64,000 bases of DNA from Parabacteroides faecis (GTDB taxonomy: Bacteria > Bacteroidota > Bacteroidia > Bacteroidales > Tannerellaceae), in assembly GCF_014647375.1 (NCBI RefSeq), contig NZ_BMPB01000005.1, positions 62,001-126,000 on the forward strand, in the 5' to 3' direction. The notes under the pieces are model-generated. The model saw nothing but the letters and a program-made list of their open reading frames with translations, made no database searches and was not told where the DNA came from. Position 1 is the stretch's first letter, and each line of letters opens with the position of its first letter. The translations under genes and the position numbers were made by a program. Shown piece by piece: positions 15,411-33,012 of this stretch.

Positions 15411-16265
15411 TTATTCCCAGCTAATATCCAGGGCATTATATCCTTTGGTCTCATCACTGTTAAAGTTGTAATGATACAAGCGTCCTTTCTTTGTCTTTAG
15501 ATTCAGGTAAGTATAACTTGCTCCTAAATACAGGTAGAACGAGTTGATGGAAATCTCAGATCCGGTAGGGTAACATGGGATAGGGATTTTTTCCGTATCA
15601 TTATTATAGAAATACCAGGCTGTTGCACTCGATTGATAGCCACCTGCCGGTGTGATAACATTCGTGGTGGCATCTAATGTAAATATAAAATCAGTACCGG
15701 AATTCAGATAGTTGGTGATCTTATATTTGTTCGTACCTTCCATTTGCAGGATATCTTGTTTGAATGCCGGGAAGATGGAACCGAATTTGAACGTTGCCTC
15801 TTTGATGGCAACTTCCCAACTGGCAACTAATACCGAACCTGTGAATTTACTGGCTCCGTCGAGTATTGAATAGGGATCTGCATATTCGCTGCCGTCTATC
15901 TCGAGACGGTAAGAATAGGGAGTTGCCGTTGCAGCATTCGGAAAACTGATCTTGATAGTTGAAATGCTTTGACCGGCAGTAAATTCTACTTTTGTCGGAA
16001 TGGAGAGCACTTCGTCCTGGCTAAGTATTTTAATGGGTACGGATGCGGCAGATGCGGTTTGTTCGCGCCCTATTTTCAACGTGATGGCATATTCTTCCGA
16101 GGCATCGATTACTTTAGATGCTTCGTTCGTACTCAGGAAATAAACCTGCATGCAGTTCGGAGATGTTTGCGGACCGGGTTCGTAAGAATCATCGTCGTTG
16201 CATCCTGTGAAACCGAATCCAATCAGACCGGTCAACAGATATATAATGTTTTTAATTGTTTTCAT
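15411..16265 (-). CDS. Surface lipoprotein, third gene of the phase-variable SusCD operon, function unknown
   Basis: This protein has 284 residues if started at the second Met (16265); an in-frame ATG at 16277 adds four. The lipoprotein signal ends at Cys22 (GFTGCNDDDSYEPG) with an acidic stretch typical of surface export. The first part looks like a beta-sandwich of the Calx-beta or DUF1735 kind (about 40-130, with EYAITLKIGRE and VPIKIL). A second beta-rich domain follows. No catalytic motif was recognised. It is 23-35 bp downstream of the SusD gene, so it is probably a substrate-binding partner of that SusCD pair. It would share the OFF state of the operon if it has no promoter of its own. 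Confidence 0.7.
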   Translation of the reverse strand: MKTIKNIIYLLTGLIGFGFTGCNDDDSYEPGPQTSPNCMQVYFLSTNEASKVIDASEEYAITLKIGREQTASAASVPIKILSQDEVLSIPTKVEFTAGQSISTIKISFPNAATATPYSYRLEIDGSEYADPYSILDGASKFTGSVLVASWEVAIKEATFKFGSIFPAFKQDILQMEGTNKYKITNYLNSGTDFIFTLDATTNVITPAGGYQSSATAWYFYNNDTEKIPIPCYPTGSEISINSFYLYLGASYTYLNLKTKKGRLYHYNFNSDETKGYNALDISWE

Positions 16266-16300
16266 AAGATTATTCATTTACTGATTTGAGAATAGACGGA

Positions 16301-18046
16301 TTATTCAGACCAGAGTTTGATCGCCATGGTTGGATCCGGATTATTGATGACACTATCGTTGATCCTGTTTTCCGTTTCTGTGATATAGATATTAAGCCAT
16401 GGGGCAACATATCCCAGAATGGAATTGAAACGTTGTGAAGCGACATGATTAGTTCCTTTGTATCCGCGGACTATTTGCATTTCCAGGCGTTTGTAATCAA
16501 AATAGATAATACCTTCTCCCCAGAATTCGATGCGTTTCTGTACTATTAACTTATCCATAAACTCTTCTATTCCGGCTAATTGCCCGCATTCATACGAACC
16601 GTCTGTGTAGCGATATTGGTTCATAAAACTTTCCAGTGCGGATACCCCGGCTTCCATTCCTTGCGTAAAAGCCAGTGCTTCAGCTTCGATGAAATACATT
16701 TCTTCGATTCGCATGACCGGAATGTCTGTTGCTGCCCCGATTTTGTAGGTATCCATTTCGCCTGAACCCGGACGGAATTTGAAACCTGTGTATGCCGGTG
16801 TTTTTGCCCAGTTCTCATCGCTTAATAATGTGTGATATTTGGCCGAAGGAGCTTTTCCGGCATCTTCAGGGGCAATCCAGGTTACTTTTCGCCAGTCACC
16901 GTCGGGAATCTGGTCGAAAAGGCTTTTACTGATCATCCTGTATGTGTTGTACTTATAGTTAGCCACACCGAATGTTGTTTCCGGCGATATGTTACCGATA
17001 AAGTTCTTGTAATTTGAGTTTATGGAGTTGGTACCGATAATGATGCCCAACATCCACGACATTTGCGAATCACTTTTATTAAAACCTGAAGTCGTGTTAT
17101 GCCATTGATCTTCCGTCAATGGCGAATAGGCTCCGGAGTTGATCGCTTTTCGTGCGTATTCCAGTGCTTTGGCATAGCATCCTTCAGCAGATGTTACTCC
17201 CAGAGGGACCAGATCCTGGAGCTCGGCATCGCTTTCATGAGACATTTGCGTCGATAGGTCATCCGGATAAAGCCGGAAACGTGTTGCAATCTCCAGCCAG
17301 GTACGTGCTTTCAATCCGTAGACAACTGTCAGGTCCGGAGTGTTCCTGGCTTTGCGTGTAAAACCGGCCAGATATTCTTCAGCTTTGTCGAGGTCATTCA
17401 GGATGAAACGGTACATCTTGTAGAAAGGAGCACGCGGGTTGTTTTTGGCTTCTTCTTCAGATATATTTTCCGTTATGATAGGAACTGTAAGGCCGTAAAT
17501 CTTATCGGCTGCGGCTTTACTGTCCAGGCTTGATACTCCTGTGTGCTTATATTCAAACATACAGGATAACTCCAGATATGCCAGTGCCCGGTAAGCCAGA
17601 GAGCTGCCCAGATATTGTTTGGCTGCTTCAGTCGCTTCTTCCGGGTCGACTGTACGGATGGTACTGTGGGCATTGTTGATCAATCGGTAATAAAAATACC
17701 AGATAATCTGTTGATATGTATAATTTCCCAGGTAATTCGTACTGCCCCACGGGTTATTAAAATAATCGTATCCTGTTTTGCTGACCGGGAAATCGTTACA
17801 CATAACATCCCGCGAGGTCATAATGGCTGGATAGCCGTAATCTGTAGCTCCGGCACTGGTACTGTTCAGAATATTATATGCATTCATATGGGCTGCTGTC
17901 GCGTTAGCCAGGGCTTCCAGTGCCGTGGTCGACTTTGCTACTTGTTCCGTTGAAGCGACATCTGTTGGGAATGTCTCTTCAATACAGCTGCTTAATAAAG
18001 TGACTGCTGTACAAAAAGCGATTGTTTTTATAGATATTTTTTTCAT
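16301..18046 (-). CDS. SusD/RagB-like lipoprotein of the phase-variable operon
   Basis: This 581-residue SusD-family lipoprotein has its lipidated Cys at residue 21 (VTLLSSCIEETFP). TPR-like helical segments (YRLINNAHSTIRT, AYRALAYLELSCMFEYK), a PVMRIEEMYFIEAEALA segment and the C-terminal VQKRIEFWGEGIIYFDYKRL are present. It lies 18 bp downstream of the SusC body, so its expression probably depends on the same invertible promoter. No degradative enzyme is nearby, so the ligand cannot be guessed. Confidence 0.9.
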   Translation of the reverse strand: MKKISIKTIAFCTAVTLLSSCIEETFPTDVASTEQVAKSTTALEALANATAAHMNAYNILNSTSAGATDYGYPAIMTSRDVMCNDFPVSKTGYDYFNNPWGSTNYLGNYTYQQIIWYFYYRLINNAHSTIRTVDPEEATEAAKQYLGSSLAYRALAYLELSCMFEYKHTGVSSLDSKAAADKIYGLTVPIITENISEEEAKNNPRAPFYKMYRFILNDLDKAEEYLAGFTRKARNTPDLTVVYGLKARTWLEIATRFRLYPDDLSTQMSHESDAELQDLVPLGVTSAEGCYAKALEYARKAINSGAYSPLTEDQWHNTTSGFNKSDSQMSWMLGIIIGTNSINSNYKNFIGNISPETTFGVANYKYNTYRMISKSLFDQIPDGDWRKVTWIAPEDAGKAPSAKYHTLLSDENWAKTPAYTGFKFRPGSGEMDTYKIGAATDIPVMRIEEMYFIEAEALAFTQGMEAGVSALESFMNQYRYTDGSYECGQLAGIEEFMDKLIVQKRIEFWGEGIIYFDYKRLEMQIVRGYKGTNHVASQRFNSILGYVAPWLNIYITETENRINDSVINNPDPTMAIKLWSE

Positions 18047-18064: not shown

Positions 18065-21000
18065 TTAGAACTGGACATTTATGCCTCCTGAAATACTCCG
18101 GACAGGCGAGTAGGATAATCCGGACGGGTTACCATCGAAATTGCTACGCGGGTCGAAACCTTTTCGTTTTGACCAGTAGAAGAGGTTGTCGCCGGCTACA
18201 TAGACACGTACCTTGTTAAGGTATAAAGTTTTAACCAGTTTAGTGGGGAACGTATATCCCAGATTGACATTTTGTAAAGTTAGCCAACTGGCATCTGTTA
18301 ACCAACGGTCGGAGGAACTCGTCGTATTGGTGTCTGCATATTGCCAACGTGGTATATTGGATGTCTGGTTGTCTTCCGACCAGGCGTTCAGGATATCTTT
18401 GTGGATATTTGATCCTGTTGAACCGGCAATAGGCGAACCCATCAGGGATGCATAGTCCTTGTCATAGAATTTCCCTCCGATAGAGTAAGAGAAGGATACG
18501 CCCAGGTCGATTCCTTTAAATGACAGATTGGTCCCGAAACCTCCGTACAGGTCGGGGAGGGCCGTTCCGCATAAATGGTAGTCAGCATCACTGTACACCG
18601 TTGTTTTTTGCTCGTTTCCCTCTTTGTCGGTATAATACCACATCTGTTGCCCTTCTTCGGATACTCCGGCATATCTTTTTAGACGCCAGCTATACATAGG
18701 AAGGCCTTCTCCATAAAATTGGTTACTGCTGGGATAACCTTTATATCCGTCTAATTCGGTCCCTTTTCTGTCTTCAGCCAGATAGGTGATCTTGTTTTTA
18801 TAATGGGTCAGGTTCAGATTGACCGACCAATTCAGATCTTTCGTCCGTATGGGTGTGACAGTCAGGTCCAGTTCGAGTCCTTTATTGGTCATATCGCCGA
18901 TATTGTCGTAATATCCGCTGTATCCCATCGAGAGGGGAGTGCCTAGCCAGCATAACATATCAGTCGTTTTGCGGTAAAAATAATCGATACTTCCGTTCAG
19001 TCGTCCCTGGAATAATTCGAATTCGAGGCCTGTATTGAAGTTCCCGTTTGTTTCCCAGGTTATCTCTTTATTCCCTTTTGTTTTGAATACGAGTGAGATC
19101 GATCCGTCTGAGTCCTGGATATCATAGGTATCCGTATATCTGTTATAACCTATGTCGTCATTTCCTTGTGAGCCGTATGATACTTTATATTTCAGCATGT
19201 CGATCCAGTTTTGTTTGAACCAGTCTTCTTTGCTGATAATCCATGCACCGCCGACCGACCAGAAGTTTCCCCAGCGGTGATCCGGATGGAAACGTGAGGA
19301 AGCATCCCGGCGATAAGAGCCGGAGATAAAATATTTTTCCTTGAAGTCGTATTGTCCGCGTAAGAAATAACCTTCTGTATTGTAATCTTCCGATTTAGAA
19401 TTGGTATCGTTCAGAGTAATTGCTCCGGCCAGTTCCTGGTTGTCAAAATAAGAATACATATTTGTTTTACTTCCCCACACATATGCATAATTGTATTTGA
19501 AATTTTCATGTCCGATCAAAGCGGAGATGCTATGATCGCCAATTTTCTTATTATAATTTAATAATTGCTGGAAGTTGACTGTCGTAGTGCGATAATGGTA
19601 CGTATAGACATATCCGCCCTGTCCGGCATAATAGCCATAGAAGGGTTGTGTAGTCGATGTTTTTCGTCGTTCATAATCAGAAACACCCAGATTAAGTGTG
19701 AATTTGAAATCGTTCAGGAATGAGATATCCATGAAACCGCTTGCATTAATGGAATTCCCGTTTGTTTTATTTGTGTTTAACCGATCTGTCTGTAACGGGT
19801 TGGTGTTGGGGAGCACGGAACGTTCCAAACCTGCATTATTGCCTTTTCCGTAATCATATACATTGCCGTTTTCATCCTGCAGGATATTCCCCTGACCATC
19901 ACGGACGTAGAGAGGATAGATCGGAGCGATTGTAGTGACGTGCCCGAATAAATTTGTAGAACTCAAGTCGCTGGGGTCTACACCGGAAATTCCGTTTGTT
20001 ATACTGTGTGTGTAACTGATATTTCCACCGGCTTTTAACCATTTCTTTGCCTGGTAGGCAGCTTTTAAACGGCCGGAATAACGTTCGTAGTCGGCGTTGT
20101 AGACAACGCCTTCATTCTTAAGATAACCTAACGACAGGTAGAACTGGAGTTTCTCCGTGCCTCCGTTTATGTTTAGATTATATTCCTGGCGCAGGGAGGA
20201 GCGGTAGGCTTCTTTCTGCCAGTCGTCGGGCGTTAATAAGTAATCTTGTCCGTTATAGTTAACGATGTTGCCTAAAGTTGCGTTAGGGTTCAGACGTCCG
20301 TTTTCTCCGATCAGGTATTGTCCGTCCGGTACATTATATATCATATATCCCAATCCGCCGTTGGCAGAAGATTGCGGAATCATTTCGTTTGCGTGTTTAT
20401 GCGCATCATAAACGCTTTGGCCTTGTCCACGTTGATAATAATTGTAAAGGGCCAGATAATGTTGTTCGTAATATTGTCCGGGATCAGTAATATAATCATA
20501 CAGTTTGGCGGCATGTGTATTAACCCCCCATTTGGCATCCAATGTGACAACTGCGTCACCGGCTTTTGCTTTTTTTGTCGTGATCATGATCACACCATTA
20601 GCTCCACGGGCACCGTATAGGGCATTCGATGCGGCATCTTTCAGGACGGTCAGTGATTCTACATCCGACGGGTTGATATTGTTCCAACCGCCATCATAGG
20701 GTATTCCGTCCAGGATAATTAGCGGGTCTTTGCCTGCGTTGATCGAGCTAAGACCACGAATACGGATTTCGGGAGTTGCATCAGGGGCTCCTGAAGCATT
20801 TATCATTTGTACGCCAGCAACTTTGCCGTTCAATGCGTCTACAACGTTCGTCACCTGCCGGGTACTTATGTTTTCTGCTTTTACAACACCGGCAGAACCG
20901 GTAAAAGCAGCTTTCTTTTGTTCTCCGAAGGCAACGACAAGCACTTCACCCATTTGTTGGACATCTGTCTTTAATACTATTTTTAAATTCGGTTTAATCG

Positions 21001-21073
21001 CTGTCTCTTCGGGTTGCATACCTAAAAATGAGACGACCAGAGTCTGTGCAGAACTTGGTACATTTAAATTCAA
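18065..21073 (-). CDS. SusC-like transporter body, 5' end missing because the switch is in OFF orientation
   Basis: The open frame runs from 21073 (TTG, not a credible start) to 18065. From the shared NVPSSAQT onward it holds the end of the carboxypeptidase-like domain (LVVSFLGMQPEE), a TonB box-like MGEVLVVAFG, the plug (ALNGKVAGVQM, EIRIRGLSSINAGKDPLIILDGI) and a complete barrel ending GGINVQF. It has no signal peptide, no promoter and only the tail of its first domain. The missing pieces lie at 21199-21498 on the opposite strand, bounded by perfect inverted repeats. Inversion would restore one in-frame 1063-residue SusC: 72 residues from the cassette plus 991 from here. The barrel and plug are intact with no frameshift, which argues for a silent gene rather than decay. 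Confidence 0.9.
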   Translation of the reverse strand: MNLNVPSSAQTLVVSFLGMQPEETAIKPNLKIVLKTDVQQMGEVLVVAFGEQKKAAFTGSAGVVKAENISTRQVTNVVDALNGKVAGVQMINASGAPDATPEIRIRGLSSINAGKDPLIILDGIPYDGGWNNINPSDVESLTVLKDAASNALYGARGANGVIMITTKKAKAGDAVVTLDAKWGVNTHAAKLYDYITDPGQYYEQHYLALYNYYQRGQGQSVYDAHKHANEMIPQSSANGGLGYMIYNVPDGQYLIGENGRLNPNATLGNIVNYNGQDYLLTPDDWQKEAYRSSLRQEYNLNINGGTEKLQFYLSLGYLKNEGVVYNADYERYSGRLKAAYQAKKWLKAGGNISYTHSITNGISGVDPSDLSSTNLFGHVTTIAPIYPLYVRDGQGNILQDENGNVYDYGKGNNAGLERSVLPNTNPLQTDRLNTNKTNGNSINASGFMDISFLNDFKFTLNLGVSDYERRKTSTTQPFYGYYAGQGGYVYTYHYRTTTVNFQQLLNYNKKIGDHSISALIGHENFKYNYAYVWGSKTNMYSYFDNQELAGAITLNDTNSKSEDYNTEGYFLRGQYDFKEKYFISGSYRRDASSRFHPDHRWGNFWSVGGAWIISKEDWFKQNWIDMLKYKVSYGSQGNDDIGYNRYTDTYDIQDSDGSISLVFKTKGNKEITWETNGNFNTGLEFELFQGRLNGSIDYFYRKTTDMLCWLGTPLSMGYSGYYDNIGDMTNKGLELDLTVTPIRTKDLNWSVNLNLTHYKNKITYLAEDRKGTELDGYKGYPSSNQFYGEGLPMYSWRLKRYAGVSEEGQQMWYYTDKEGNEQKTTVYSDADYHLCGTALPDLYGGFGTNLSFKGIDLGVSFSYSIGGKFYDKDYASLMGSPIAGSTGSNIHKDILNAWSEDNQTSNIPRWQYADTNTTSSSDRWLTDASWLTLQNVNLGYTFPTKLVKTLYLNKVRVYVAGDNLFYWSKRKGFDPRSNFDGNPSGLSYSPVRSISGGINVQF
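21041..21065 (+). repeat. Left inverted repeat of the susC switch (25 bp)
   Basis: It begins AGTCTGTGCA and ends GGTACATTT. It is the exact reverse complement of 21499-21523, and the match stops sharply on both sides. The inner part is roughly palindromic (TGTGC ... GTACA), as recombinase sites often are. Confidence 0.92.
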
Positions 21074-21198
21074 TACCCTGATTATATCTCATATATAACT
21101 TGTTTTTATAGCATCAAAAAATAGAGCTATACCAACAGGGTAGAAAATAAGAGATGGTAAGTAAAACACACCATAAAACATCATTTTGTAAATTTAAA

Positions 21199-21230
21199 TT
21201 TGTTTTTTTTGATAAAATTTATTATATTTG
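21199..21230 (+). promoter_or_regulatory. Invertible promoter of the switch
   Basis: TTTG at 21199-21202 and TATATTTG at 21223-21230 are 20 bp apart, a full match to the Bacteroides consensus. Transcription should start near 21237, about 70 nt before the ATG at 21308. As written it points right, away from susC. Confidence 0.8.
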
Positions 21231-21307
21231 CATATATAAAGAGGTCACACTAGTAATTCCTTGAAAAACAAATCAGGAAACAGTATATTAAACTATAATT
21301 ATCCATT

Positions 21308-21541
21308 ATGAAAAAGAAGCTTATATTATTGTTAGGAAGCCTTTTAGCTAGTATCACTCTGGCTCTTGCGCAAAAAATCACAGTAAACGGTACTGTATTC
21401 TCGGAAGAAGACAGCGAGCCCATCCAGGGAGCAACCGTATTGATAAAAGGAACGAATATAGGAACAATCACCGATGCAGACGGAAAATTCATTTTATCAA
21501 ATGTACCAAGTTCTGCACAGACTAATTCAAATAGTTTTTAA
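21308..21541 (+). CDS. Invertible 5' cassette of susC: signal peptide and first domain
   Basis: As written this encodes a 77-residue exported peptide: a signal peptide ending near LALAQ (about residue 22), then VNGTVFSEEDSEPIQGATV, the start of the carboxypeptidase-regulatory-like domain seen at every SusC N-terminus, through NVPSSAQT. It then runs past the repeat into NSNSF and stops. No plug or barrel follows on this strand; the next gene is frr. After inversion residue 72 would join the SusC body at 18065-21065 in frame. In the present orientation it may yield a short secreted domain of unknown fate. Confidence 0.88.
   Translation: MKKKLILLLGSLLASITLALAQKITVNGTVFSEEDSEPIQGATVLIKGTNIGTITDADGKFILSNVPSSAQTNSNSF
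21499..21523 (-). repeat. Right inverted repeat of the susC switch (25 bp)
   Basis: This is the exact reverse complement of 21041-21065. It lies inside the cassette reading frame, where it encodes NVPSSAQT. Confidence 0.92.
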
Positions 21542-21550: not shown

Positions 21551-21685
21551 CTATATTTTAATGTTGTTTTTCTCAAATATATATGCTTCCTTTGGGATAA
21601 CTTACCATCTGTATCCTATTCTGACATAAGTTTACTGTGGTGTTTTGTCAACTTATTTCAGGACAGGACATCCTTTACTTTTTAG

Positions 21686-21773
21686 CGGCTGATAATTGTG
21701 AGCCATACGGTTGATGATTGTCAGCCAAGCGGTCGATAATTATCAGCCAAGCGGCTGACGGTTATCAACCGCT
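21686..21773. repeat. Tandem array of four degenerate 22-bp palindromic units before frr
   Basis: Units start at 21686, 21708, 21730 and 21752. Each is a variant of the palindrome GGCTGATAATTATCAGCC with a four-base spacer. Each unit can fold alone. The rest of the 21542-21866 gap shows no gene. Confidence 0.75.
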
Positions 21774-21866
21774 GATTAGTCGCCGTAGTAATTGGAATTA
21801 GTATGCATAGTAATTCAAAAAAACATGGTAGGAAACCTGAAAAGATACCGAATCATTTTGTTCTTG

Positions 21867-21897
21867 TTTGTCAGGTTCAAAAACTTTACTACTTTTG
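21867..21897 (+). promoter_or_regulatory. frr promoter
   Basis: TTTG (21867-21870) and TACTTTTG (21890-21897) are separated by 19 bp, a full consensus match. The predicted start near 21904 leaves a leader of about 30 nt. Confidence 0.75.
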
Positions 21898-21934: not shown

Positions 21935-22498
21935 ATGGCAGATATCAAGCAGTATGTAAAGTCAGCAGAAGAGAAAATGTCGTTCGCAATCGATTATCTT
22001 GACGAACAGTTAGCTCATATCCGTGCCGGAAAGGCTAATCCGAAGATTCTTGACGGAGTGAAGGTCCCTTATTATGGAGGTCTTGTTCCTCTGACAAATG
22101 TGGCTTCGGTTACTACTCCGGATGCAAAAACGATTATTATCACTCCCTGGGAAAAGCCGCTTATCAAAGAGATTGAGAAAGCGATCATGAATTCTGAAAT
22201 AGGTATCACTCCAGAAAATAACGGTGAAGTGATCCGTTTGGGTATTCCTCCGTTGACGGAAGAACGTCGTCGTAATTTGGCAAAACAATCCAAACAGGAA
22301 GCTGAAACGGCAAAGATCAGTATCCGTAATGCACGTCGCGATGCTATCGAATCGATAAAGAAAAGTGTGAAAGCCGACGGAACTCCTGAAGACGTGGCAA
22401 AAGATACAGAAGCGGAAGTTCAGAAGATACATGATAAGTTTATCAAAAAGGTAGATGACCTCTACGCTGCTAAAGAAAAAGAAATAATGACAGTTTAA
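21935..22498 (+). CDS. frr: Ribosome recycling factor
   Basis: This 187-residue protein splits the post-termination ribosome together with EF-G. Family features are the N-terminal helix with [26 protein letters not shown], the beta-rich middle ([21 protein letters not shown]), [15 protein letters not shown], and the C-terminal helix with [14 protein letters not shown]. Length is normal. The frame stays open upstream to 21803, but those 44 codons have no family match, and the consensus promoter at 21867-21897 would not include them. The ATG at 21935 is therefore chosen. Confidence 0.97.
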
Positions 22499-24842: not shown

Positions 24843-25054
24843 ACTAAAATGTGGATACGGTTTTAGTATTTAGCGGAGACTTTGTTTTAAAAAGGATAAG
24901 TCCTACAAGAACTATGTTAAATAGAAGGTAAATAGTAGGGTTTCTGATGTTGCAAATGTGAATATTAATGTTTGAAAGGTTAAATATGACTAATATTTGC
25001 TTTTTAAGATAAAGCTTCCATCCTTTATATAGTGTATTAATAAAATAATTAAAT

Positions 25055-25062
25055 TACATTTG
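25055..25062 (+). promoter_or_regulatory. Possible -7 box for the susC/susD pair at 25199
   Basis: TACATTTG matches TAnnTTTG. No TTTG is found at the right distance upstream. It would give a leader of about 130 nt that contains the perfect AGTTCT palindrome and a short upstream reading frame. Confidence 0.4.
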
Positions 25063-25157
25063 TAATCTATGTACATGAGTTCTTGTAGAACTATGTATGA
25101 ATCTAAAGTTAATTGGATACGACTATTAACAATTTAACTCGTTTTAAAAAGTGCATT

Positions 25158-25202
25158 ATGAAAAATTATTTATTGTCAAACCTAAACAATCTGTCTGTAT
25201 GA
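25158..25202 (+). CDS. Possible 14-codon leader peptide overlapping the susC start
   Basis: ATG at 25158 begins MKNYLLSNLNNLSV. The stop TGA overlaps the preferred SusC ATG (25199) in an ATGA arrangement. Such overlaps allow translational coupling. The peptide is too short for composition to prove coding. The alternative is that SusC starts at the in-frame GTG at 25151. Confidence 0.3.
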   Translation: MKNYLLSNLNNLSV

Positions 25203-28200
25203 GAAAGAGCTTTGTTATGTTGGTACTATTCTGCATCGGGATATGTACGAATGTGCTTTGGGCACAAGGAAAAGTAAGCGGTGTTGTAATGGACAAAGAA
25301 CTGAATGAGCCTCTCGCTGGTGTTAATGTTCTACAAAAGGGTACGACTATCGGTACTGTAACTGATTTGGATGGTAAGTATTCACTGGAAGTTGATGGTA
25401 ACGCAATTTTAGTCTTTTCTTATTTAAGTATGAAAACAATAGAGGAGCCGGTTAACGGACGTTCCGTTATCAATGTCTCTATGGTTTCAGATTCGGAGCA
25501 ATTGGGTGAAGTTGTCGTAACAGCCATGGGTATCAAGCGTGAGTCGAAGACACTCTCGTATGCTGCCCAGACAGTTGGGGGCAAAGACCTGAACGAAATC
25601 AAGAATGTAAACATGATCAACTCTTTGCAGGGAAAGAGTGCCGGTCTGCAGATCACTCCGAACTCAACTGGTGCCGGTGGTGCATCTAAGATCCTGTTTC
25701 GTGGTAACAAATCTATTAATGGTAGCAACCAGCCGCTGATCGTTGTGGATGGTGTTCCTTTGATGATGAATGTGTCAGACTCTCAGGTGAACAGTAACTA
25801 TGGTGGAGGTCGTGACGGTGGTGATGCCATGTCTACGATCAACCCGGATGATATTGCTCAGATAACATTGTTGAAAGGTGCATCTGCTGCCGCTTTGTAT
25901 GGTGCTGTTGCTGCCAATGGTGCGATCATGATCACAACAAAGTCGGCTTCGTCCGGAAAAGTTTCGATCGATGTATCCAGTAATACGACAGTAGAAACTG
26001 TTTCTTCGTTGCCAAAGTTCCAGAATACTTATGGAATGAGTGATGAAGGTACATTCAGTTGGGGCAGTAAATTAGCTAGTGCAGCTCCTAACTATGCAAA
26101 AGAATTCTATCAGACAGGTTTCACTACCAACAACTCTATTTCTTTGAGTGGTGGTAATGAACATATCTCTTCTTATTTTTCTTATGCAAATGTCGCTTCT
26201 AACGGTGTTACACCGAAGAATACTTATATGAGTCATAACTTATTGGCTAAAGTAGGTTTCAATTTGTGGAAGAAAGTTCATATCGACGTAAGTGCACGTT
26301 ACAATAATCAGGATATAGAGAACCAGGCTGCTGCCGGTTTCCTTAATAATCCGGTCACAGGTGCTTATCTGTTCCCGAGAGGAGAAGACTGGGATAACTA
26401 TAAAAACAATTACGAAGTTTATAAACCCTCTTTGAACGCAAGTGTTCAGAACTGGACAAATACAGCTCAGGAACAATTCTCCAATCCTTACTGGATGGTG
26501 AATCGTCAGAAACCGACATCAAACCGTAACCGTTATGAATTTGGTGGTAGCGTGAAGTATGATATTATGGAAGGTCTTTCTGTTACCGGTCGTTTACGTT
26601 ATGAACGAGGTGATGAAAAATGGATCTATAATGAATATGCATCCAGTACTGGTGGTCGTAACCAGATGGGGACAATGAAAGATTCCCGTATCTTCAGTGA
26701 ACAGATGTATGGAGATTTCCTGGCTAGTTATAATAAGACCTGGGAAGAAACTTATACTTTGTCGGTAACTGCAGGTAGCAGTTTCACGAAAACGACCGGT
26801 TCGAGTGTGGATCTGATCGGATGGGGTGATTCTAAGTTCGCAGTAGTCGACGGAAAGCCGACAGGTAGCGCTTATTATCCGAATATCTTCTCACCGGCAA
26901 ACTATTACCGGATGAGCACAACGGAATCATTGAAAGAAAAACGTTTGAATTCAGTATTTGCAACTGCTCAGTTTGGTTATAAGGAAGGTCTGTTCCTGGA
27001 TGTAACTGCCCGTAACGACTGGTCTTCTGCTTTGGCATATACAGATGGCGTTTCATTCTTCTATCCGTCGGTAGGTGCCAGTGCATTGCTGGATAAGTTT
27101 ATCGACTTCGGTAAGAATGTGAATATGTTCAAATTTCGTGCTTCTTACTCTATGGTAGGTAACGACGTTCCTGTCTTTATGACCAATCTGCGTTATGAAT
27201 TGGCTGATCAGGGTTCTCTTACTCCTCCTGAAAATGCTCCGTTCAAGACATTGAAACCGGAAAAGACCAATTCTTTGGAAGTCGGTTTCGACGGTACATT
27301 CTTCCAAAACCGTCTGGATGTAAACCTGACTTACTATAAGACCAATACAAAGAACCAGTTCTTCTCAATCTCTGCTCCTTGGGAAACAGGTCTGAGAAAC
27401 CGTTATGTAAATGCCGGTAACGTAGAGAACCAGGGTTTTGAAATCGGTTTAGGATGGCACAATCAGTTTACCGATCATTTCAGCTGGAGCACAAACTTCA
27501 ACTTCGCTTATAACCAGAATAAGATCAAAGAATTGGTGGATGAACTGCCTGACGGTCTGACATTGGCCGATTATGGTGGCGCAAAAGTGATCCTGAAAGA
27601 AGGCGGTCATTATGGTGACTTGTTCGTACGCCAGATTAAAAGAGATGAAAACGGTAAACCTCTTGTTTCTGAAAGCGGTGCACCTCAGTTGGGTGGTGAT
27701 GGTATCGAAGACCTGAAATATGTCGGCGATATGAATGCGAAGGTAAATATGGGTTGGACCAATACATTCCATTATAAAGACTTTACTTTATCATTCCTGA
27801 TCGATGCAAAGGTCGGTGGTAAAGTGATGTCGACCACAGAAGCCACTTTAGACGGTTGGGGCGTTTCAGAACGTTCCGGTGCTGCCCGCGATGCTGGTAG
27901 GGTTGTATTTGAAGGCGTTTCATTCGATCCTCAGCAGTTCTATTCTGTAGTAGGTGCAACGAACTTCAACTCACAATATGCAAATGAACTGTATGTTTAT
28001 GACGCAACAAATGTCCGTTTGCGTGAATTGTCTATCGGATATACATTCCGTAATCTCTTTGGTATCGGCAAGAATCTGAATGCTTCGATCATTGGCCGTA
28101 ACCTCTTCTTCTTCTACAAAGACGCTCCGATGGATCCGGATGTATCAGCCGGTACAGGAAACGGCTGGCAGGGAATCGATATGTTCGCTTTGCCGTCTTC

Positions 28201-28237
28201 ACGTAGCGTTGGTCTTAACTTGAAATTAAACTTTTAA
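25199..28237 (+). CDS. SusC/RagA-like TonB-dependent transporter
   Basis: This 1012-residue protein is counted from the ATG at 25199, which gives a clean signal peptide ending NVLWAQ. The frame continues up to a GTG at 25151 that would bury it. The carboxypeptidase-like domain (VSGVVMDKELNEPLAGVNV) is followed by a TonB box-like LGEVVVTAMG, the plug (LQGKSAGLQI, ILFRGNKSINGSNQPLIVVDGV) and a barrel ending LNLKLNF. There is no STN domain. The genes nearby give no substrate hint. T-rich, uniform codons such as GGT and CGT suggest strong expression. The partner SusD follows 12 bp later. Confidence 0.93.
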   Translation: MRKSFVMLVLFCIGICTNVLWAQGKVSGVVMDKELNEPLAGVNVLQKGTTIGTVTDLDGKYSLEVDGNAILVFSYLSMKTIEEPVNGRSVINVSMVSDSEQLGEVVVTAMGIKRESKTLSYAAQTVGGKDLNEIKNVNMINSLQGKSAGLQITPNSTGAGGASKILFRGNKSINGSNQPLIVVDGVPLMMNVSDSQVNSNYGGGRDGGDAMSTINPDDIAQITLLKGASAAALYGAVAANGAIMITTKSASSGKVSIDVSSNTTVETVSSLPKFQNTYGMSDEGTFSWGSKLASAAPNYAKEFYQTGFTTNNSISLSGGNEHISSYFSYANVASNGVTPKNTYMSHNLLAKVGFNLWKKVHIDVSARYNNQDIENQAAAGFLNNPVTGAYLFPRGEDWDNYKNNYEVYKPSLNASVQNWTNTAQEQFSNPYWMVNRQKPTSNRNRYEFGGSVKYDIMEGLSVTGRLRYERGDEKWIYNEYASSTGGRNQMGTMKDSRIFSEQMYGDFLASYNKTWEETYTLSVTAGSSFTKTTGSSVDLIGWGDSKFAVVDGKPTGSAYYPNIFSPANYYRMSTTESLKEKRLNSVFATAQFGYKEGLFLDVTARNDWSSALAYTDGVSFFYPSVGASALLDKFIDFGKNVNMFKFRASYSMVGNDVPVFMTNLRYELADQGSLTPPENAPFKTLKPEKTNSLEVGFDGTFFQNRLDVNLTYYKTNTKNQFFSISAPWETGLRNRYVNAGNVENQGFEIGLGWHNQFTDHFSWSTNFNFAYNQNKIKELVDELPDGLTLADYGGAKVILKEGGHYGDLFVRQIKRDENGKPLVSESGAPQLGGDGIEDLKYVGDMNAKVNMGWTNTFHYKDFTLSFLIDAKVGGKVMSTTEATLDGWGVSERSGAARDAGRVVFEGVSFDPQQFYSVVGATNFNSQYANELYVYDATNVRLRELSIGYTFRNLFGIGKNLNASIIGRNLFFFYKDAPMDPDVSAGTGNGWQGIDMFALPSSRSVGLNLKLNF

Positions 28238-32967: not shown

Positions 32968-33012
32968 AAACGATAAACCCGGATACAAAATCTGTATCCG
33001 GGTTTATCGTTT
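32968..33012 (-). terminator. Terminator of the HU-GSCFA-murF/alr operon
   Basis: A perfect 20-bp stem (32968-32987 with 32993-33012) closes a five-base loop just past the murF-alr stop. On the - strand TTTTATAA follows. Confidence 0.88.

Follow-up and report, generated by a model that had tools for sequence, protein, structure and literature searches.

A putative one-sided inversion switch within a SusC gene of Parabacteroides faecis and its relation to the SusC shufflons of the genus

SusC shufflons and trans-acting invertases are already known in Bacteroides, according to the excerpted text of PMC4747536, PMC11852207 and PMC5729914. In Bacteroides fragilis Tsr0667, a tyrosine recombinase, drives the SusC/SusD shufflons (Nakayama-Imaohji et al. 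2009, as cited in excerpts of PMC4747536 and PMC11852207), and one recombinase inverts three SusC/SusD clusters together with nine other regions (PMC4747536, same excerpt). Inversions in the intergenic shufflon of region EE of this species allow a single promoter to serve alternative pairs of ragA/susC-type genes (excerpt of PMC5729914). The invertible promoters (invertons) of Bacteroidales have been catalogued with PhaseFinder (excerpts of PMC11892184 and PMC10939037), and intragenic shufflons are also mentioned in the excerpt of PMC10939037. Jiang et al. described five repeat motifs of Bacteroidota, and others have been published since (excerpt of PMC11892184). The locus described here lies in a stretch of 64,000 nucleotides (the window) on contig C5 of the source genome (G000). 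Based on its anatomy and on comparison with 38 other genomes of the genus, it is probably a switch that works by site-specific DNA inversion and represents a detached unit, with a single body, of the SusC shufflon of the genus.

Anatomy of the locus and its flanks

The following features were identified.

21036-21040: ACCAG, outer flank of the left arm
21041..21065, plus strand: left arm of the inverted repeat, with the core site AGTCT-GTGCA-GAACT at 21041-21055
21066..21498: candidate invertible core of 433 bp, which in the assembled orientation points away from the SusC body (OFF)
21200..21230, plus strand: promoter of the Bacteroidales type, TTG-N20-TATATTTG, with the -7 box at 21223-21230
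21308..21541, plus strand: N-terminal fragment, with start, signal peptide (by inspection) and first half of CarbopepD_reg_2
21499..21523, minus strand: right arm, with the core AGTTC-TGCAC-AGACT at 21509-21523
18065..21073, minus strand: SusC body, frame open up to 21088, with Plug domain and without promoter or signal peptide
16301..18046, minus strand: SusD-like partner, downstream of the SusC body
15411..16277, minus strand: third gene, probably of the same operon, with a weak DUF5006 match below the cut-off
21935..22498, plus strand: frr, ribosome recycling factor, start by inspection (MADIKQYV), the first gene facing the OFF-oriented promoter

The two arms are exact reverse complements of 25 bp each (25/25 bases identical), separated by 433 bp. 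They form the longest exact inverted repeat at a spacing of up to 1 kb in the window, the runners-up being 20 and 16 bp long, and the chance expectation for such a pair is approximately 6e-8 at equal base frequencies. No further full copy of the 25-mer was found among the 40 of 62 candidates scored in the 6.66-Mb source genome. The -7 box begins 85 bp upstream of the ATG at 21308. In the assembled orientation the N-terminal fragment is a truncated ORF of 77 aa ending at 21541, which matches only profile positions 1-47 of the 88 of CarbopepD_reg_2 (50.6 bits). The SusC body scores 747.5 bits against TIGR04056 (SusC/RagA outer-membrane protein; cut-off 368.25) and begins inside CarbopepD_reg_2, a domain to which the left SusC frame gave no match at E <= 0.001. 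As assembled, the body is expected to be silent. A reading made from the sequence alone had described these perfect repeats, with promoter, ATG, signal peptide and half domain pointing rightward from within the core and the SusC body pointing leftward, and each of these elements was confirmed.

The minus-strand product of the left arm is NVPSSAQT, at the start of the SusC body frame; the right arm encodes the same octapeptide at the end of the N-terminal fragment, and the homology of the right side to the left ends exactly with the last base of the core. Inversion in silico resulted in a single SusC ORF of 1063 aa (18065-21256), fully open, to which the fragment contributes the promoter and the first 65-72 codons. 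Its first 236 residues hold a complete CarbopepD_reg_2 (positions 1-88 of 88, 75.9 bits versus 50.6 for the half) and the Plug domain. The in-frame join and the intact 1063-residue product claimed by the sequence-only reading were thus reproduced in silico with the domain restored, and the frame break at the join that it had named as an argument against inversion is absent. Its interpretation as an invertible ON/OFF switch stands as the best reading, with strong comparative support, while a change of orientation of this locus was not observed. Contig C5 is unbroken at the switch, from which it follows that one orientation dominated the assembly, and this segment was not seen in the opposite orientation in any of the related genomes compared, among which no second genome with the cassette was found (up to 10 candidates scored per genome).

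On the right side the repeat is followed by only five residues (NSNSF), an intergenic stretch and then frr, which the sequence-only reading had not listed; neither the ORF listing nor the Pfam-scanned genes showed a second SusC body there. An MFS gene adjoins frr in G038, G013 and G009, where the SusC-SusD cassette is absent, and in G022 the 7.4 kb examined before frr resemble neither the MFS gene nor the cassette. The approximately 6.5 kb (15.3-21.9 kb) between the MFS gene and frr have thus been either inserted here, relative to G038, G013 and G009, or lost from those genomes. The nearest kin of the SusC body among the sequences compared is an unsplit paralogue on C10 of the same genome (62.7%), followed by silent shufflon bodies of other species (56-57%); the best homologue listed was at 56%, in one search that may omit near genomes.

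The position of frr raises the question of two outputs, in which the ON state would give SusC and SusD and the OFF promoter would read into frr-rsgA and alter their level. The OFF-oriented promoter does face frr at a distance of about 0.7 kb, with no intrinsic terminator found between them (shuffle mean 0.4), but a promoter-like TACTTTTG belonging to frr itself is present at 21890, within a stretch of 66 bp (from 21864) upstream of frr that is identical in the cassette-free G038 and G013, and a palindromic repeat at 21708-21771 intervenes. A second output is considered improbable.

The palindrome (36-bp arms, 75% complementary) is part of a dispersed repeat at 21614-21800, parts of which match at least eight other places in the source genome (79-86%) and further places in relatives (73-96%; up to 10 candidates scored per genome). 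An 18-bp inverted similarity (89%) between 21371-21388, at the coding start of the fragment, and 21630-21647 in the right flank may be due to chance. A tight perfect 20-bp inverted repeat at 32968-33012 is perhaps a terminator hairpin. Rfam gave no matches in the window at gathering thresholds.

The coding site and the SusC shufflons of the genus

The left arm and its outer five bases constitute ACCAGAGTCTGTGCAGAACT, which is one base off a 20-bp coding site of the genus, ACCAGAGTCTTTGCAGAACT; the right arm retains only the 15-bp core of this site. Using the pattern ACCAGAGTCTKTGCRGAACT with up to one mismatch, drafted to admit the G of the window and a G seen in G021, 42 sites were identified in 14 of the 39 genomes of the genus (reversed control, 0). 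Among 393 genomes sampled from the order it was present in three, all of this genus. The G at position 11 is unique to the window among the 42 sites.

Thirty-four sites from 12 genomes were read out; those left out were the window's own, one each in G001 (C142), G006 and G009, and two each in G029 and G038. All 34 fall within a SusC body, where they encode SSAKTL (CSAKTL in one case). A fragment consisting of a signal peptide and half a domain is joined to one body, and one only, in 10 of the 12 genomes. The joined copy of the source genome is cut by a contig end, that of G004 is its only site, and none was found in the pieces of G038 and G001 examined. The plan of the SusC shufflons of the genus is an N-terminal fragment, probably with its promoter, and several bodies, one of which is joined; the promoter on the movable fragment was established for the window switch, and the fragments of the relatives were compared by their coding part. 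The sequence-only reading had suggested that both the join inside the coding sequence and the one-sided design may be new. The former proved ordinary in the genus, being found at 34 of 34 shufflon-type sites in 12 genomes, and what is unusual is the one-sided form lacking a local recombinase.

The window unit shares two features with these shufflons, namely the coding site at the join and the movable fragment carrying promoter, signal peptide and half of CarbopepD_reg_2. It lacks two others, having a single body and no recombinase gene found on contig C5. Of the loci read, just one had this one-sided, single-body form without an enzyme nearby. Protein constraint alone does not dictate the site, since the unsplit C10 paralogue has different codons at the position of the join. 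In G004 one site lies in an intact gene and is partnerless within the 20 kb examined, so possession of the site is no proof of switching.

Sister species differ in which body is joined. A body that G012 keeps silent (G012:2445250) has counterparts that carry the fragment in G015 (97.5% over 590 aa) and in G014 (96.1%); conversely, another body carries it in G012 (G012:2456959) but is silent in G015 (96.6% over 684 aa). Such differences are expected if the site class recombines; they concern homologous sites, not the window's copy.

Three further sites of the source genome lie on C18 (two) and C25 (one). C18 ends 42 bp beyond a site, its body bearing the end of the fragment there, and C25 runs out inside the same N-terminal fragment. 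Pieces of the shufflon thus do occupy contig ends in this assembly, as would suit an artefact that had placed a shufflon fragment in the window. Such an artefact is very improbable, given that the SusC body bears little resemblance to the bodies of the main shufflon (46% to the closest one compared) and that the cassette is consistently set between the MFS gene and frr.

Two other arrangements were noted. At G014:C3:343623 a flanking SusC body beside the recombinase is cut to 54 aa, which may mark a transition between the two-sided and the one-sided type of switch. At G003:C35:39343-39996 two divergent SusC N-termini face outward from a region, about 5 kb from the recombinase, which has a 40-bp outer repeat and AGTTC-TATCA/TGATA-GAACT sites.

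The wider site class and the candidate recombinase

A wider class, AGTTC-N5-GAACT, is similar to the shufflon site; the site of the window switch departs from it at two arm positions. The source genome contains 66 copies of this class (reversed control, 1). Neighbours up to 2 kb apart form 23 pairs, of which 22 are inverted, and the 5-bp spacers match in all 22 inverted pairs (permuted mean 0.34, maximum 4 in 20,000). In the eight other genomes listed in full (G001-G008) there were 12 inverted pairs within 2 kb, likewise all spacer-matched. The context was read for 20 of the 22 pairs (C15 and C17 were left out), and 11 of the 20 directly precede a SusC-like gene. The sole strand with TAnnTTTG, a weak mark, faces away from the SusC-like gene in 8 of 9 unambiguous cases. 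Class pairs are also present in G002, G005 and G019, all without the 20-mer, with the nearest site 4.4-5 kb from the recombinase described below. A class pair of G006 bears the spacer of the shufflon (AGTTC-TTGCA-GAACT), which ties the shufflon site and the wider class together.

Two spacer-matched pairs were found in the window (reversed control, none), the switch itself and the pair at 24899/25078:

24899..25092: second candidate inverton, AGTCC-TACAA-GAACT / AGTTC-TTGTA-GAACT, upstream of the SusC gene 25151-28237

The equivalent SusC genes of G038, G013 and G009 are 85, 85 and 49% identical and have two class sites with another spacer (TATCA), both sides having changed together. The cores at this place no longer align.

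Tyrosine recombinases generally need identical spacers. The window spacer is GTGCA versus TTGCA in the main shufflon, a G form shared by no other of the 42 sites, and this difference would, if spacer identity is needed, keep the window switch apart from the main shufflon. Tentatively, the spacer may be an address, such that among sites sharing the AGTTC...GAACT arms only those with the same spacer recombine, and the window switch may be an escaped shufflon unit whose spacer went from TTGCA to GTGCA. One recombinase could then serve some two dozen promoter and coding switches, the same-spacer rule would spare the chromosome from scrambling, and a new spacer acquired in both arms at a new place would give an independent switch. 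The case for selection of private spacers was weakened: the 22 pairs use 20 spacers, with 2 coincidences seen versus 4.1 expected from position composition. Spacer diversity is no greater than chance, so drift is enough, and a selected address is compatible with the evidence rather than proven by it.

The window copy could be a relic, with repeats that once worked and an operon that is now permanently off, and the two arm mismatches to the class consensus, the spacer differing from that of the main shufflon, the unbroken contig and the lack of a second body are in keeping with this. A relic is nevertheless unlikely, as the arms are identical at all 25 positions, the Lys to Gln codon departure from the shufflon site is found in both arms and the 1063-aa frame is fully open.

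A search for the enzyme gave 23 Phage_integrase profile matches in the source genome, none of them on C5. In eight relatives a tyrosine recombinase with an open frame of 397-414 aa is encoded 0.3-5.5 kb from the nearest shufflon site. Its orthologue in the source genome is located on C3 (454683-455873, 397 aa), is the one close homologue and is not on the window's contig. It is 93, 92 and 89% identical to the shufflon-side enzymes of G013, G038 and G009, respectively, and the next-best recombinases of the source genome reach 24-34%. The protein has arm-binding, SAM-like and catalytic domains and what we take to be the catalytic pattern R, K, HxxR, H, Y. C3 ends within a SusC body 4.7 kb from the recombinase gene, and therefore a site beside it is not visible. 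The G029 recombinase at C9:111231 was rejected as a shufflon enzyme, being just 22-28% identical to the others.

Homologues at E <= 1e-60 are present in 26 of the 39 genomes. Class sites lie within 12 kb of the recombinase in 16 of these 26, cases which come from species of shared descent and hence are not independent, and the nearest site is at 4.4-5.5 kb in 14 of the 16. This count is based on 37 listed sites of a degenerate pattern versus about 4 chance hits by arithmetic, the stretch per recombinase varying; a control gave 1 hit in 545 kb with a pattern narrower than the degenerate one. No class site was found within 12 kb in the stretches examined in the other ten, which include G000 and G026 (where contig ends come first), G024 (a 75% full-length homologue, approximately 10 kb examined on each side) and more distant homologues (45-59%). 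Of the 15 genomes that have a full-length orthologue, 10 showed an excess of sites, more than twice the control, compared with 2 of the 24 that lack one (Fisher p = 0.0002, counting genomes as independent and ignoring kinship). Recombinase presence as a full predictor of site number was rejected, 5 of the 15 showing no excess.

Based on orthology and linkage in the relatives, the C3 recombinase, acting in trans, likely flips the window switch. A working switch flipped by another tyrosine recombinase of the genome or by a serine invertase is a rather doubtful alternative. None of the 23 matches is on the window's contig and distance thus favours none of them, but it is the C3 enzyme whose close orthologues adjoin the same site class in relatives, linkage having been checked for this enzyme only.

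The preferred mechanism is accordingly worded for the 397-aa C3 recombinase, whose orthologues adjoin SusC shufflons with nearly the same site. Strand exchange would take place within the 5-bp spacer of the two 15-bp sites in the coding sequence, and the core would flip. In the OFF state, which was assembled, the promoter, start codon and signal peptide would face a dead end, leaving SusC, SusD and the third gene silent; in the ON state the fragment would be fused in frame to the SusC body, allowing the operon to be expressed. We infer that the window copy inverts, that this enzyme acts on it, where the crossover falls and that expression follows orientation; the anatomy, the frame, the kinship of the sites, the close orthologue of the shufflon-linked enzyme in the genome and the different joins at homologous sites were seen in the sequences.

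Comparison with known systems

The window unit suggests a route by which a multi-gene SusC shufflon may shrink to a plain ON/OFF unit at a distant position. It also poses a testable question, namely how one recombinase could serve dozens of chromosomal sites without rearrangements. SusC proteins import nutrients, and T-cell responses to one SusC epitope have been reported (excerpt of PMC10939037), so such switches bear on the surface diversification of gut bacteria. No description of the one-sided form or of a spacer address was recognised in the literature, as represented by listings and the beginnings of abstracts.

The Tsr0667 system, by the description in the excerpt of PMC4747536, is alike in that a single enzyme serves several SusC/SusD clusters and distant single regions; unlike it, the window unit is single-body and one-sided and has no recombinase on its contig. 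In region EE the repeats, situated downstream of an invertible promoter, overlap the start codon (excerpt of PMC5729914), whereas the join of the window switch lies 65-72 codons into the ORF and its promoter travels with the fragment. Invertons, as summarized in the sources named above, resemble the window switch in having short inverted repeats around a promoter and are often near susC, but those of the promoter type move the promoter only, while the window switch moves coding sequence too.

The shufflons of the genus itself (C3, C18 and C25 of the source genome, G003, G009, G012-G015, G021, G026 and G038) have the same 20-bp coding site bar one base, a signal-peptide-half-domain fragment of the same kind and an in-frame join inside CarbopepD_reg_2. 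They possess at least two bodies and, in eight, a recombinase with its nearest site at 0.3-5.5 kb, whereas a single body and a contig without a recombinase characterise the window unit. What is new is this one-sided, single-body SusC switch without a recombinase on its contig.
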